Shown here in pieces: positions 39,643-48,019 of a stretch of 48,019 nt of DNA (position 1 is the stretch's first letter; the number at the start of each line of letters is the position of its first letter). The translations under genes and the position numbers were made by a program. The stretch is taken from contig JAOUNB010000003.1 in assembly GCA_029881195.1 (NCBI GenBank), positions 1-48,019 on the forward strand. The letters are read 5' to 3'. The stretch comes from Candidatus Nitrosopumilus sp. (GTDB lineage Archaea > Thermoproteota > Nitrososphaeria > Nitrososphaerales > Nitrosopumilaceae). Below the pieces are notes generated by a model. The model worked only from the letters and a program-made list of their open reading frames with translations. It was not told the origin of the DNA and ran no database searches.

Positions 39643-40650
39643 TTATTTTTTATTTTTCTTCTCAAAGGTTTCACTGATGTTGAAGTCACCTAATGTCATT
39701 GTAATAGTATAAACTCCAGTCTGAAAGTTAGAAATTTTATTAATATAATGCTCCAAGTTACTCATTGAAACATAAGGCAATGCGAAAACAATCCCGTCAG
39801 GATTTGTCAGTCTTGGTACAATGGTAGTTTTTTGGTGCAGCGATAAAGCACTCTTGGAATCAATCTCATATGATATTCTTTGATGTGTACCAGGCTCCCC
39901 ATCTAAACTGATTTTAATTGAGAATGGATCTTTTGGTTCCTGAATTCCCCCTGTAGTAAATTTGTATGAGGCTATTGCACGTATGTCTGGATCATATGAT
40001 GTTGGAGAATGAAAATATGTGACGTCAATCCTGCTTATTCCAGAATAATAAAAACGAGGATCTGATATGTTGAAATATCCTGAAAACCATCCATTTGGTT
40101 CTACAGCCAAGTTTGGTACTACTTTATTTCCATTAAATAGTATGTCAACTGACTTGTTTGCTTTTTTAATAACTGGATCCCCAAAATCAAATTTACCATA
40201 CACATTAACTCTGTCTCCAAACTTGTAATGATCCCTGTCAGTCCATACCACTAATTCATTAATTGGATACGCTTCTGGCAAATCTCTTCCTTTTTTGGTT
40301 GTATCCTTAAAAACAACATCATAATACAGCAAAGACATGTCCTTCAATGTCTCATCATTATCTTCGTAAATTCGGCAACAATAGTCTGCTTCTAATGGAA
40401 AAATCTCTTTTTGAGGATTTGGTGGATTATTACATACTGATGGTAGATCTACATATTCACAAAACCAAAAATTATCCGTAATGGGAATCTTTCTCCATCC
40501 GGTACATTCAGGATGTGTTGGAAATTGCCCACAAAAATTTTCACTAGCAGTTATACTGCCATAAGCATTTCCTGCATTCGTTGAAATAACTAGTGAAATC
40601 ATTACGATCACCAATAATGATGATGATAATAGCAAAGCAGATATTCTCAA
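39643..40650 (-). CDS. Exported protein, signal peptide, hypothetical
   Basis: A 335-residue protein with an N-terminal signal peptide (MRISALLLSSSLLVIVMIS, cleavage probably near residue 30). A cysteine-rich part follows (residues 38-93: FCGQF, PECTG, FCEY, SVCN, DYCCRI). After that come beta-rich segments such as VVWTDRDHYKFGDRVNVYGK and VEPNGWFSGYFNISDP. The WTD/FGD pattern recurs in exported thaumarchaeal surface proteins. The TTG start overlaps the stop of the upstream gene by four bases (TTGA), so the two exported proteins are translated together. Confidence 0.7.
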   Translation of the reverse strand: MRISALLLSSSLLVIVMISLVISTNAGNAYGSITASENFCGQFPTHPECTGWRKIPITDNFWFCEYVDLPSVCNNPPNPQKEIFPLEADYCCRIYEDNDETLKDMSLLYYDVVFKDTTKKGRDLPEAYPINELVVWTDRDHYKFGDRVNVYGKFDFGDPVIKKANKSVDILFNGNKVVPNLAVEPNGWFSGYFNISDPRFYYSGISRIDVTYFHSPTSYDPDIRAIASYKFTTGGIQEPKDPFSIKISLDGEPGTHQRISYEIDSKSALSLHQKTTIVPRLTNPDGIVFALPYVSMSNLEHYINKISNFQTGVYTITMTLGDFNISETFEKKNKK

Positions 40651-41765
40651 TTATATTCTCTCCACTTTTGATATAGATCATCTATAGCTACATTATTTGT
40701 ATCCAAGAACTTTGATGATGCGTAAATCAAATCCCCTTCTTCTGAATACACTTCGATATTATGCAATTGATCTCCAGATAGTATTACAGAAACAAACCCG
40801 TTGACAGTATTTTGTGTTGTTATGTACGGCACGTTATATGTCTCAACTTCCTTGATCAAATTATAAGATTCATCATATGTGGCCACAAGAAATTTCTGAG
40901 ATCTAAAACTATCTGTTAACTCTTGCAAGATCAACACTGAGTCATTCTCTTTTAATTTCATTGGGTATGTCTGTAACTTGTATTGATAGCTTTCATTTCT
41001 GTCAGTAGAATAGGATATGGTTATGGGAGTCACAGTTTGAGAATATTGGATAGTTTCTTTGAAATAAAAAGATCTTGTATCTGGATCTATTGAAGCTGTA
41101 TATTGTTGTTTGAATTTATTTCTATCATCATTATCAAATTGTATAGTGACTCTGGGATTTGATTTCATTATATCTGTTGGTAAATCAACCTCACCAACAA
41201 TCCGTATGTCTTGATCATTTGTTATTTGATTATATTTTTGGAATAATTTAGCTGATATACGTGGATTTGGATTCTCCCAATCACCAATATGGTATACTTT
41301 TTGTATTATGTTATTCTCAAGATTGTCAGTTAAATGCGATAAGGTATCATGATAATTCAAAATTACGGTAATAGTGTGAACTCCATCAGTCACAGCCCAT
41401 ATTGGGCCTGTCGTAATCTTAACTCCATTATCTTCTCCGGGCACAATATCTGGAAGCGCGTCAATTTTGATCAAATCTCCATTCAAAAAATAACCAACTG
41501 TAACTACATCTGTGACAGAACCTGTTGATTGTGTGCCCAAATTGTATATTGAAGAGTTTATACTGATTACATCGCCTGGATTTGGATCTTTTGGCTCTAT
41601 CCATATGTTGTTGAGAAATGGATCTGCATCACCTAACCTGAATGCTGAGGAATTACCTACAGGAATTACCAAACACATCATGACAAACAAAAATATAAAT
41701 TCTTTTAAAAACCTCAATAGCCAAGTTATAATCCTCAATATTCGCTTAAAAGTATTATTAATCAC
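40647..41765 (-). CDS. Exported CARDB-like protein
   Basis: A 372-residue protein with a hydrophobic N-terminal signal or anchor (about residues 20-42, FIFLFVMMCLVIPVG). Residues about 50-155 look like a CARDB-type immunoglobulin-like adhesion domain: NIWIEPKDPNPGDVISINSS, VTVGYFLNGDLI and DGVHTITVILNYHDTL. The remainder is beta-rich and unassigned. The start is GTG at 41765. It is the upstream member of a coupled exported pair and is divergent from the GT2 synthase gene, with about 340 bases between the starts. Confidence 0.65.
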   Translation of the reverse strand: MINNTFKRILRIITWLLRFLKEFIFLFVMMCLVIPVGNSSAFRLGDADPFLNNIWIEPKDPNPGDVISINSSIYNLGTQSTGSVTDVVTVGYFLNGDLIKIDALPDIVPGEDNGVKITTGPIWAVTDGVHTITVILNYHDTLSHLTDNLENNIIQKVYHIGDWENPNPRISAKLFQKYNQITNDQDIRIVGEVDLPTDIMKSNPRVTIQFDNDDRNKFKQQYTASIDPDTRSFYFKETIQYSQTVTPITISYSTDRNESYQYKLQTYPMKLKENDSVLILQELTDSFRSQKFLVATYDESYNLIKEVETYNVPYITTQNTVNGFVSVILSGDQLHNIEVYSEEGDLIYASSKFLDTNNVAIDDLYQKWREYN

Positions 41766-44597: not shown

Positions 44598-45620
44598 ATG
44601 AGCAAAACTCCCATTCAAAAACAGCAAGAGAGTACTGGTGTTGTTGAACAGCTGAAAAAAGAGAGTATTGATGTTGCTCAGCTTAACGTACTTGAAGATA
44701 ATATTTTTAGCACTGATTCTATTCTGGTAGTTGAGGATAGTGTTTCAATTTCCTCTACCATTCAAAAATATCTCTCTAATCTTGGCTTTAAGGAGATACA
44801 TCTGGCCACCAATGGAAAAGATGGATTGGCATATTATGAAAATTTACTAAAAGAAGAACAAAAAATTGTGTCGGTAATTCTTGATGATAGTTTGGAGGAT
44901 CTTCAGGCAAAGAAGATGGTGTCAGATCTTTTTGAAATATATCCACGAGCAATAATAATACTGCTCTCTGCGGTAGAAAAATCAGACAAAAAGATAGTGG
45001 AACTGCTCAACATGGGGATTTATGATTATGTCCAGAAACCATTAAATTTTGACAGGATAGAGGAAGTAATTAAAAAAATAAAAAAAGAAAAGAATATCAC
45101 TGATACAACAACTCAGCCTGACGTAAAAGAAAAAATAATCTCATTACTAACCAACAAGTTGTTAAGCAATAATCGTATATCTGACATGCTGAAAATTGAA
45201 AAAAATATTGCTGAAAAAAACATTAAAGAACTTGAGGCTTTGAACACAATAAAAAATGTTGGAATTTTTAATGAACCCATATGCAATAGATGTTCATCAT
45301 CTGATCTCACGTCAATTTTTTCTTGTCCTGTATGCACAAACAAAACTTTTTCTAAAGAGGCTTTAATCGAACATCATGAGTGTGGTAATGTCGAATTAGC
45401 TAAGAACTATCTAGATGGAAAATGTCCAAAATGTAACAAAGAACTAAAAATTCTGGGAGTAGATTATCAGAGGTTGGAAAATTATTACGTATGTAATAAT
45501 TGCAGTGATAAGTTTCCTGCATTGGTTCATAACCTAGAGTGTGCCTCTTGCAGCAACAGATTTGAAGTTAATAGCGCAAATTGGATAGAAAGTAGAATAT
45601 ACAAGAAATCAATCGAGTGA
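44598..45620 (+). CDS. Receiver-domain protein with multi-zinc output region
   Basis: A 340-residue response-regulator-like protein. The receiver domain spans about residues 41-160: acidic residues E46/D47, phospho-acceptor candidate D96 or D97 in VSVILDDSLED, switch S124 and K147 in YVQKPLN. A helical linker (180-220) resembles a short winged-helix or coiled coil. Five CxxC pairs follow: C229/C232, C243/C246, C276/C279, C299/C302 and C315/C318. The segment CPKCNKELKILGVDY...YVCNNC suggests the thaumarchaeal output domain TackOD1; this is my recognition and not a search result. It is the first gene of a three-gene signalling-like group. Confidence 0.75.
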   Translation: MSKTPIQKQQESTGVVEQLKKESIDVAQLNVLEDNIFSTDSILVVEDSVSISSTIQKYLSNLGFKEIHLATNGKDGLAYYENLLKEEQKIVSVILDDSLEDLQAKKMVSDLFEIYPRAIIILLSAVEKSDKKIVELLNMGIYDYVQKPLNFDRIEEVIKKIKKEKNITDTTTQPDVKEKIISLLTNKLLSNNRISDMLKIEKNIAEKNIKELEALNTIKNVGIFNEPICNRCSSSDLTSIFSCPVCTNKTFSKEALIEHHECGNVELAKNYLDGKCPKCNKELKILGVDYQRLENYYVCNNCSDKFPALVHNLECASCSNRFEVNSANWIESRIYKKSIE

Positions 45621-45770
45621 TCATCTGCATCTATCTTACAACCATGTCTTTTGTTCAGAAAAATATCATTTTATAAACAGTAATGATGACATAGAATTTC
45701 ACATATCAATAATGATTCACTTGTGCTTGGCCCGTATAATAAAGAATATTAATGTTAGATTGTTAGGTAA

Positions 45771-46523
45771 GTGGAATTGTGTGCGTTAAATGAAACAGTG
45801 GATGCAGGTAGTACGGTTGAGGATAGGCGTTTTAATGATTTCCAGCTATCTGAAATTGAAAATACATTAAAAGAAATACAGCTAGTTTCAGATGAGAAGC
45901 GATTAGAGATATATTTTAAAGAGAGCATTGATTCGGTTTTACAAACCATTACGAAATCTAGAAACATTATTTTAAAAAGTAAATCTGAAGTGGATGAACT
46001 CCAGTCCATCTTGCAAGAAAAAATTTATGAAAAGAGAAAAGCTTCAATCATTTCAGATAAAGCAACAATAGAAAAAAGGGATCTAGCAACAAAAACTGAA
46101 ACCGCAAGAAACGAATTAAACACAATAAGACAGGTTATGGAAAATATTACCAATATTGCTTCTAATCTTGATGATAACGAGGCAGAAATTGCCACAGAAG
46201 CACTAAAACCTGCTTTAATTAGAAAGACTGTTGTTGTAGAAAGATTGGAATCAGAATTAAAAGCAGCAGAAGAGTTTGCAACTTTCTCTCTTGATAAAAA
46301 GGAAAAAACAGACAGGGATTTTTTACAAATAGAAAAGTCGTATAATGAAAAACTTACACTAGTTAACAATCAGAGTATTAATTTAACTACTAGCATCAAC
46401 CGTATTCTTACATCGTTCAAGGATTTAATTGAAATATCAAATAATGTACTAAATTCATCCATATCTGATATGCCCATTAACAGTGCCGACAGTACTGGAT
46501 ATGAAGAAGCGACTCCGGCATAA
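45771..46523 (+). CDS. Long coiled-coil protein, hypothetical
   Basis: A 250-residue protein, mostly helical coiled coil from about residue 25 to 190 (for example SKSEVDELQSILQEKIYEKR and KTETARNELNTIRQVMENIT). A helical region to about 228 follows, then a short acidic tail ending GYEEATPA. No membrane segment, signal peptide or known domain is seen. The start is GTG 45771; a TTG two codons later is possible. It lies between two receiver-domain proteins, so a scaffold or sensor-adaptor role is a guess. Confidence 0.65.
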   Translation: MELCALNETVDAGSTVEDRRFNDFQLSEIENTLKEIQLVSDEKRLEIYFKESIDSVLQTITKSRNIILKSKSEVDELQSILQEKIYEKRKASIISDKATIEKRDLATKTETARNELNTIRQVMENITNIASNLDDNEAEIATEALKPALIRKTVVVERLESELKAAEEFATFSLDKKEKTDRDFLQIEKSYNEKLTLVNNQSINLTTSINRILTSFKDLIEISNNVLNSSISDMPINSADSTGYEEATPA

Positions 46524-46623
46524 TAATTTCCAGAGAACAGCTTTAAGTCTATAGATAAAAAATAATTCAATAGTTATTGGTAATGCTGATTCTTTATACT
46601 GTATCTGGGTATTGAATACAAAA

Positions 46624-47841
46624 TTATTTACGCTTTTTCTTTGACGTGTGTCGTTTTTTATCTTTCTTCTTTTGAGATGAGGTAGATTTTGTGTTCTTTT
46701 GTTTGGGACGTGTTCTGTAAACTTTTCTTCTTACTTTAGATATCTCTTTCTTGAGATTAAATAATTCGTCTTCAGTAATCTGTATTTGACTCACGCTGCT
46801 TACATTAGAGGTGTTATAGAGAAACTGGTTTTTTATCGAAGATAATCTAGATAAAATCTTCTTAAATTCGCTATTAGAATCGGTTTCAAACGTAGTTTGT
46901 GGAAATTGTTTTTTTGGAGTATCCGAATGATTTTCAGTGTGATGCTGTTTGATATTTTTTGATACTTTGGAATTATAATTTTTCTCTAACTCATCAATCT
47001 GTTTTGTCAACTCCTCTACTTTGGCCAGCTGTTCTGGAGTAGCTTCATCTTCGACGATCATTGATGTTTCATCTTGCTTGGAAACAGATTCTGATTCTTG
47101 CACAATCTTCTCACTGGAAGTCGACTCTGGAGGTTGCGATTCTAACTCATCAATCTGTTTTGTCAACTCCTCTACTTTGGCCAGCTGTTCTGGAGTAGCT
47201 TCATCTTCGACGATCATTGATGTTTCATCTTGCTTGGAAACAGATTTTGATACTTTGGAATTATAATTTTTCTCTAACTCATCAATCTGTTTTGTCAACT
47301 CCTCTACTTTGGCCAGCTGTTCTGGAGTAGCTTCATCTTCGACGATCATTGATGTTTCAATATTACCTTCAAGCATTTCTTGTTCTTGAGTCATTTGAGA
47401 ATTCAGGATTTTTTTTGGACGAGACTCATTTTTTACCACTTGCAAAAACTCTAATATTTTTTGCGTAGACGTCGGTTTTTCAATATAGGAGTATAGACCT
47501 TTTGCTTTCCACTTTTCTATAAAGCTAGATTGTGTTGCTCCGCTGAAAAGCACAATTCTCTGATCTTGAAGAAAGCCATTTTTATCAAACAACTCTAAAA
47601 TCGCTTCTTTGGAATAATCGTCATTTGGACCATCAAATAACACCACATCAAAAATTCGCTCTTTTAGTATTTTTACTGCATTTTCTACGTCAGCTACCGA
47701 AGTTATTTTAATGCCATCTTGAATTAATGATTTTCCTAACAGATTTATCAAAAGTATGTTATTATCCATAACTAAAATCTCCATTGTGTTATCAGCTTGT
47801 TGATTTGACGGCAAATTTTCTTTATAGTCAGATTTTAGCAT
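46624..47841 (-). CDS. Receiver-domain protein with triplicated acidic repeat
   Basis: A 405-residue protein. Residues 20-137 form a receiver domain: D26, phospho-acceptor D70 in DVVLFDGPNDD, switch S100 in VLFSGA and K122 in YIEKPTS. Residues 162-290 hold three near-identical copies of a 29-residue unit (ETSMIVEDEATPEQLAKVEE plus LTKQIDELE) with linkers KNYNSKVSK and a SQPPESTSSEK spacer. A helical part follows, then a highly basic tail (KKKDKKRHTSKKKRK). The acidic/heptad units look like coiled-coil docking sites and the tail like a nucleic-acid or membrane-surface binder. The start is ATG at 47841. Confidence 0.75.
   Translation of the reverse strand: MLKSDYKENLPSNQQADNTMEILVMDNNILLINLLGKSLIQDGIKITSVADVENAVKILKERIFDVVLFDGPNDDYSKEAILELFDKNGFLQDQRIVLFSGATQSSFIEKWKAKGLYSYIEKPTSTQKILEFLQVVKNESRPKKILNSQMTQEQEMLEGNIETSMIVEDEATPEQLAKVEELTKQIDELEKNYNSKVSKSVSKQDETSMIVEDEATPEQLAKVEELTKQIDELESQPPESTSSEKIVQESESVSKQDETSMIVEDEATPEQLAKVEELTKQIDELEKNYNSKVSKNIKQHHTENHSDTPKKQFPQTTFETDSNSEFKKILSRLSSIKNQFLYNTSNVSSVSQIQITEDELFNLKKEISKVRRKVYRTRPKQKNTKSTSSQKKKDKKRHTSKKKRK
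46986..47090 (-). repeat. Intragenic repeat, copy 3 (in coding order)
   Basis: A 105-base unit that appears identical to 47142-47246. It encodes the third ETSMIVEDEATPEQ...DELE copy with the preceding SVSKQD linker. The DNA agreement suggests recent duplication or gene conversion. Confidence 0.85.
47142..47246 (-). repeat. Intragenic repeat, copy 2
   Basis: The middle 105-base unit, matching 46986-47090 base for base by eye. It is followed in coding direction by the unrelated spacer SQPPESTSSEKIVQESE, where copies 1 and 3 have KNYNSKVSK. Confidence 0.85.
47274..47359 (-). repeat. Intragenic repeat, copy 1
   Basis: The first copy, of which 86 bases match the others. The identity ends upstream at the natural junction with the receiver domain. 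On its coding 3' side it shares a longer stretch with copy 3 (both read KNYNSKVSK), so copies 1 and 3 are more similar in their flanks than either is to copy 2. Confidence 0.85.
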
Positions 47842-47864
47842 TATTATGCATATGAATTATGAAG

Positions 47865-47877
47865 TAAATATATTATA
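47865..47877 (-). promoter_or_regulatory. Candidate TATA box of the repeat-bearing receiver gene
   Basis: Read on the minus strand this is TATAATATATTTA, 24-36 bases upstream of the ATG at 47841. Spacing fits an archaeal promoter with a leaderless transcript. The remaining bases to 48019 hold no ORF that I can support. Confidence 0.4.
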
Positions 47878-48019
47878 TCCTATACTTTTTACGGCCATGT
47901 AGAAACCATACTAGAACCAACAAGTTATTCTGTATGATTCTATGACAATTGTACGCAATTATTCTGTATGTCAGTTCCCTGTTCTGCGTCACTATCTTTC
48001 TTGAGGTGACATAATCACC

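Follow-up and report, generated by a model that had tools for sequence, protein, structure and literature searches.

The window analysed here, the whole stretch of 48,019 bp, is one complete contig of the genome of a marine ammonia-oxidising archaeon, assembled into 143 contigs totalling 1.59 Mb. It carries three genes, here called P1, P2 and P3, that the initial annotation had singled out as a candidate signalling module in which two receiver-domain proteins flank a long coiled-coil protein. All three are confirmed as open reading frames (Table 1), and a profile search places a Response_reg domain above the Pfam cut-off in both P1 and P3, as that description requires.

Table 1. Features of the P1-P2-P3 region; positions are those of the window.
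Feature	Position	Strand	Basis
P1, response regulator (receiver, winged helix, TackOD1 zinc ribbons), 340 aa	44598..45620	+	Pfam, structure model, Cys and receiver residues
P1 receiver domain	44721..45071	+	PF00072, genome search
P1 winged-helix-like segment, aa 174-228	45117..45281	+	AlphaFold2 model; weak HTH Pfam matches in relatives
P1 zinc-ribbon part of TackOD1 (five CxxC, one HxxC), aa 229-318	45282..45551	+	Pfam, alignment, Cys count
P2, predicted helical-hairpin coiled-coil protein, 250 aa, GTG start, without known family	45771..46523	+	Pfam, NCBIfam, structure prediction
P3, receiver, three repeats and basic tail, 405 aa	46624..47841	-	ORF, Pfam, repeat search, charge
P3 receiver domain	47443..47778	-	PF00072, genome search
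P3 repeat unit 1	47272..47361	-	copy comparison
P3 repeat unit 2	47140..47229	-	copy comparison
P3 repeat unit 3	46984..47073	-	copy comparison
P3 basic C-terminal tail, net +17 over last 50 aa	46627..46764	-	charge count
Membrane GT2 glycosyltransferase, 795 aa, directly upstream of P1	42107..44494	+	Pfam, motifs, hydrophobic segments
EX1, exported CARDB-like protein, kept beside synthase	40647..41765	-	CARDB match just under cut-off, comparison, export prediction
EX2, exported protein, kept beside EX1	39643..40650	-	comparison, export prediction
Contig end, immediately 5' of P3; probable border of a duplicated FBPase gene unplaced by the assembly	47842..48019	.	contig comparison

The P1 receiver (aa 42-158, E = 5e-12) is intact in its acidic pair E46/D47, phosphoacceptor D96, S124 and K147. 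The C-terminal part of the protein had been described as five CxxC pairs resembling a thaumarchaeal output domain, and it does match TackOD1 (PF18551) at aa 197-327 (E = 5e-21; 75.5 bits against a curated cut-off of 32). There are exactly five such pairs, starting at residues 229, 243, 276, 299 and 315, with an HxxC at 259 and 11 cysteines in total; this set is invariant across a 14-row alignment, and zinc binding is predicted from the Cys pairs. The same initial description saw no helix-turn-helix, which is probably wrong: AlphaFold2 models aa 174-228, between the receiver and the zinc ribbons, as helix-strand-helix-helix-strand with a pLDDT of about 90, and relatives of P1 give weak winged-helix Pfam matches (HTH_24 in 4 of 14, HTH_69 in 2 of 14). 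The modelled segment suggests that P1 binds DNA. A fold search with P1 returned receivers, including DNA-binding regulators aligned beyond the receiver domain, and the zinc part gave no match of its own. A receiver joined to TackOD1 is an already known architecture, and REC-wHTH-TackOD1 proteins, with which the P1 model agrees, have been reported (Galperin et al. 2018, PMC5847659); P1 shares with them the receiver, the winged-helix segment, all 11 cysteines and the HxxC.

P2 is predicted to be a long coiled-coil protein, a hairpin of two helices of about 95 residues (41-132 and 135-232). It has no family in Pfam or NCBIfam, and a fold search found generic coiled coils, none with E <= 0.001. 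Across the three proteins, NCBIfam returned generic receiver matches only.

The P3 receiver (aa 22-132, E = 3e-8; 34.3 bits against a cut-off of 30.2) has D26, D70, S100 and K122, with Asn27 replacing the second acidic residue. Its annotated triplicated units and basic tail are both present, the former as a 30-aa unit repeated three times, with 87-89 of 90 nt identical between any two copies. The repeat was recovered independently as a 115-nt direct repeat with copies 80-100% identical, and near-identity together with independent recovery means that it is not due to chance. A coding repeat spread through the genome was considered and rejected, as the unit was found only in P3 here. We note that tandem copies of the unit, EATPEQLxxLxxLxxQIxxLE, also occur in a DUF5679 protein of this genus that is otherwise unrelated (L044, L054, L057, L061 and L063), often at contig ends; this genome has no such DUF5679 protein. 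The linkers of P3 relatives are hypervariable, with about 30 tandem EEPEAVPR units in one genome (G022, L067:10042-11949) and many AAQQAE units in another (G053, L070:2808-3653).

The product of the gene directly upstream of P1 matches the GT2 fold profile and has the processive-synthase signature (DGD, TEDFDLT and QRERW motifs) as well as membrane segments; by these sequence features it is a putative processive polysaccharide synthase. The exported proteins EX1 and EX2 are encoded on its other side. No type IV pilus genes (T2SSE ATPase, T2SSF/TadC) occur among the Pfam-scanned neighbours of P1, and no PilZ, GGDEF or EAL domains in the scanned genes. Only 178 bp separate the start of P3 from the end of the contig, and a second contig of this genome opens with the last 40 aa of fructose-bisphosphatase (FBPase) and continues with the genes that come after FBPase elsewhere; thus the contig break is most likely a collapsed FBPase repeat.

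Two complete Nitrosopumilus genomes, G022 and G053, have a locus of about 20 kb in the order FBPase-P2-P1-GT2-EX1-EX2-EX3-PGK-GlmS-nucleotidyltransferase-P3-FBPase, and G472 and G474 have the same order as far as their contigs reach. The equivalent synthase in these relatives is 1959-2034 aa long, with beta-propeller repeats ahead of the GT2 domain and, in G022, a DM13 domain as well; alignment of the window synthase with this form is limited to part of the N-terminal stretch and to the C-terminal part. The class V FBPase genes are direct copies that flank the whole locus about 19 kb apart (L067:8666-9808 and L068:8320-9462 in G022; L069:4915-6123 and L070:3828-5036 in G053) and are 99.4% (G022) and 100% (G053) identical over about 1240 nt. 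The pair has the look of a duplication whose copies gene conversion has kept alike, and such direct copies could allow loss or amplification of the locus. In G466 (L268:6249-10809) a decayed version keeps EX1 and EX2 intact next to P3 and synthase remnants. Several exported proteins, including EX3 and a deacetylase, have in common a C-terminal repeat, IPxWxKxNAGWWADGxIDDxxFVxGxxxLI (L009:2456-3946, L067:16293-17834, L269:2740-4212).

Because the locus order is kept in G022 and G053, with parts of it in G472, G474, G016 and G049, we favour, at somewhat better than even confidence, the reading that P1, P2 and P3 are cytoplasmic regulatory or accessory genes of a surface-polysaccharide locus, with P1 as its response regulator. 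The probable product of the wider locus is a sugar polymer, made and exported to the cell surface. It counts against this reading that the roles proposed for P2 and P3 come from their neighbourhood only, and that P3 is kept with metabolic genes and not with P1: its constant neighbours are FBPase and a sugar nucleotidyltransferase, in an FBPase-P3-sugar nucleotidyltransferase-GlmS block. These neighbours are gluconeogenesis and hexosamine-precursor genes. In G388, which belongs to a different genus, FBPase and the nucleotidyltransferase flank P3, and in G389 P3 adjoins the nucleotidyltransferase.

The module first proposed, a dedicated unit of P1, P2 and P3 in which the signal passes by docking, is supported in part, in that all three genes share one locus in several genomes, including G022 and G053, and are adjacent in the window. 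P2 and P3 also occur together in 5 of 250 family genomes where 0.4 would be expected, a test that genome relatedness inflates. Co-occurrence in several genera would have supported a module, but direct adjacency of the three was seen only in this genome, and P2 and P3 have different constant neighbours. Independent occurrence, named beforehand as evidence against a module, is largely what is seen: many genomes of the genus have REC-TackOD1 and neither P2 nor P3, only 9 of the 250 family genomes carry P2, G016 has P1-GT2 without P2, and P2 flanks the synthase in G037 and G049 with no REC-TackOD1 beside it. With P3 kept beside FBPase and the nucleotidyltransferase in another genus as well, we regard a self-contained three-protein unit as improbable, and signal transfer by docking as possible. 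The recurring unit is a polysaccharide-synthase locus accompanied by regulators.

The TackOD1 family as a whole was surveyed across the phylum, where PF18551 is present in 181 of 300 genomes, in a sample of 80 TackOD1 loci, for the most part a single locus per genus, with 40 regions chosen arbitrarily in the same genomes as controls. A GT2 gene, as recognised by a home-made profile and clustering, is immediately adjacent to TackOD1 in 11 of the 80 loci and makes up 6 of 505 control genes (Fisher p = 1e-6, with a control of modest size and genera that are not independent); removing G080 and G087, which had been seen beforehand, leaves 9 of 78 (p = 2e-5). Of 12 pairs, 10 have TackOD1 as the gene immediately 5' of the GT2 in the same orientation, separated by -14 to +49 nt; such pairs come from at least nine families, and the directly adjacent GT2s all have QxxRW. 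The survey also recovered the known pilus association (PMC4858521), with T2SSE or T2SSF no more than five genes away in 35 of the 80 loci and in none of the 40 control regions; most TackOD1 loci have no adjacent GT2, and the type IV pilus-linked group is the largest, which weighs against the polysaccharide-locus reading. The receiver-bearing form is confined to Nitrosopumilaceae loci in this sample. Some receiver-less TackOD1 proteins (L123:3784-4764, L133, L150, L153 and similar) have a second conserved C-terminal domain with the motif SGVEHxF, for which the L123 protein gave no Pfam match.

The enrichment of TackOD1-GT2 adjacency, the QxxRW of these GT2s, the winged helix of P1 and the co-occurrence of P2 and P3 are further reasons for placing the trio in a polysaccharide locus. 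P1 would act there either on transcription or by direct contact with the synthase. Under the second alternative, phosphorylated REC-TackOD1 would bind the cytoplasmic GT2 domain and switch polymerisation in a PilZ-like manner, with P2 as a scaffold and the winged helix as a protein-binding fold. The closely spaced TackOD1-GT2 pairs fit such contact, as do the presence of P2 beside GT2 even where P1 is missing and the REC-GT2 fusions of Methanobacteriaceae (PMC5847659), but the winged-helix segment of P1 suggests DNA binding and the TackOD1 family is also tied to pili, so we consider direct contact a rather unlikely alternative.

The contexts of REC-TackOD1 itself were compared at 35 further loci. 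At 12 of these it lies beside a GT2 and a polysaccharide deacetylase, and at 16 beside a gene for a histidine kinase together with CheY and/or Hpt genes, mostly plus a PIN-ATPase-KH gene; both contexts also count toward the polysaccharide-locus reading of P1-P3. The arrangement with P2 and the giant GT2 was found at two. Such variety, at least three contexts, fits P1 as an orphan regulator of distant genes that lies here by chance in a mobile or rearranged region. The duplicated FBPase that flanks the region in relatives fits this too, as does the position of the window P1 in a 48-row REC-TackOD1 tree, on a long branch of unsure placement with no clear grouping with other locus-A proteins; that position also weighs against the polysaccharide-locus reading. 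In that tree, however, context tracks sequence, with 7 changes against a mean of 24 in shuffles, and the GT2 adjacency is both enriched and strand-ordered; a chance neighbourhood thus seems to us quite doubtful. Beside REC-TackOD1, a deacetylase and a GT2, one locus (L296:8476-9750) has a fusion of a HisKA domain with a matrixin-like metalloprotease, which may be an assembly or frame artefact.

The annotated lack of a histidine kinase holds locally; one clear kinase is encoded on another contig (C43:5301-6938, L269) beside the only receiver of this genome other than those of P1 and P3. A second HATPase_c match was judged by eye, from its sequence, to be a topoisomerase VI B subunit and was set aside. 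Any phosphorylation of P1 and P3 would probably have as its donor the C43 kinase, a small molecule, or something absent from the assembly.

With P1-P3 read as genes of a polysaccharide locus, a possible course of events can be outlined. The signal would reach the P1 and P3 receivers from a histidine kinase or a small phosphodonor, and phosphorylation of P1 would free or dimerise its winged-helix/zinc module, which might then alter expression of the synthase locus. The P2 hairpin could serve as a scaffold at the synthase. P3 may tune precursor supply, with the repeats as an arm for docking and the basic tail for binding DNA, membrane or an acidic partner.

Bacterial synthase-dependent exopolysaccharide systems are under PilZ/c-di-GMP control. 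The archaeal loci resemble them in having a membrane-bound processive GT2 synthase, exported accessory proteins and, in the archaeal class B loci, a deacetylase, whereas the candidate switch here is REC-TackOD1 and the scanned genes lack PilZ, GGDEF and EAL. To our knowledge, little is known of surface-polymer control in ammonia-oxidising archaea, and our literature search on polysaccharide control in these organisms found no dedicated paper.

The function of TackOD1 (PF18551, arCOG06883) has been called obscure, and the domain has been linked to pilus loci (Galperin et al. 2018, PMC5847659); double zinc-ribbon proteins are also encoded in type IV pilus loci (Makarova et al. 2016, PMC4858521). 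P1 resembles the proteins of those loci, and of 35 of the 80 sampled here, in being a zinc protein of TackOD1 type whose gene accompanies those of a surface machine, but its neighbour is a GT2 polysaccharide synthase, and no pilus ATPase or TadC was recognised among the genes scanned around it. The REC-GT2 (BcsA-like) fusion MTH_548 of Methanobacteriaceae (PMC5847659) likewise links a receiver to a cellulose-synthase-like GT2; the two are fused there, whereas here they are separate neighbouring genes and a zinc/winged-helix module is added. We did not find the TackOD1-GT2 link in the main text of PMC4858521, where "glycosyl" is absent, or of PMC5847659, where it appears once, for the REC-GT2 fusions, and we provisionally regard the pairing as new.

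The surface-polysaccharide context suggests a job for this obscure domain. More speculatively, the TackOD1 zinc ribbons might serve archaea as a control domain for both processive polysaccharide synthases and pilus machines, with a role like that of bacterial PilZ/c-di-GMP, to which REC-TackOD1 would add phosphorelay control; we hold this idea only tentatively. We see the TackOD1-GT2 pairing as the most useful lead, since it is strand-ordered and phylum-wide and offers a first testable TackOD1 target besides pili; the loci include those of cultivated relatives, in which the idea is open to testing. We also note that one genome (G306, L146:3856-9637) carries two tandem TackOD1-GT2 pairs in a single locus.
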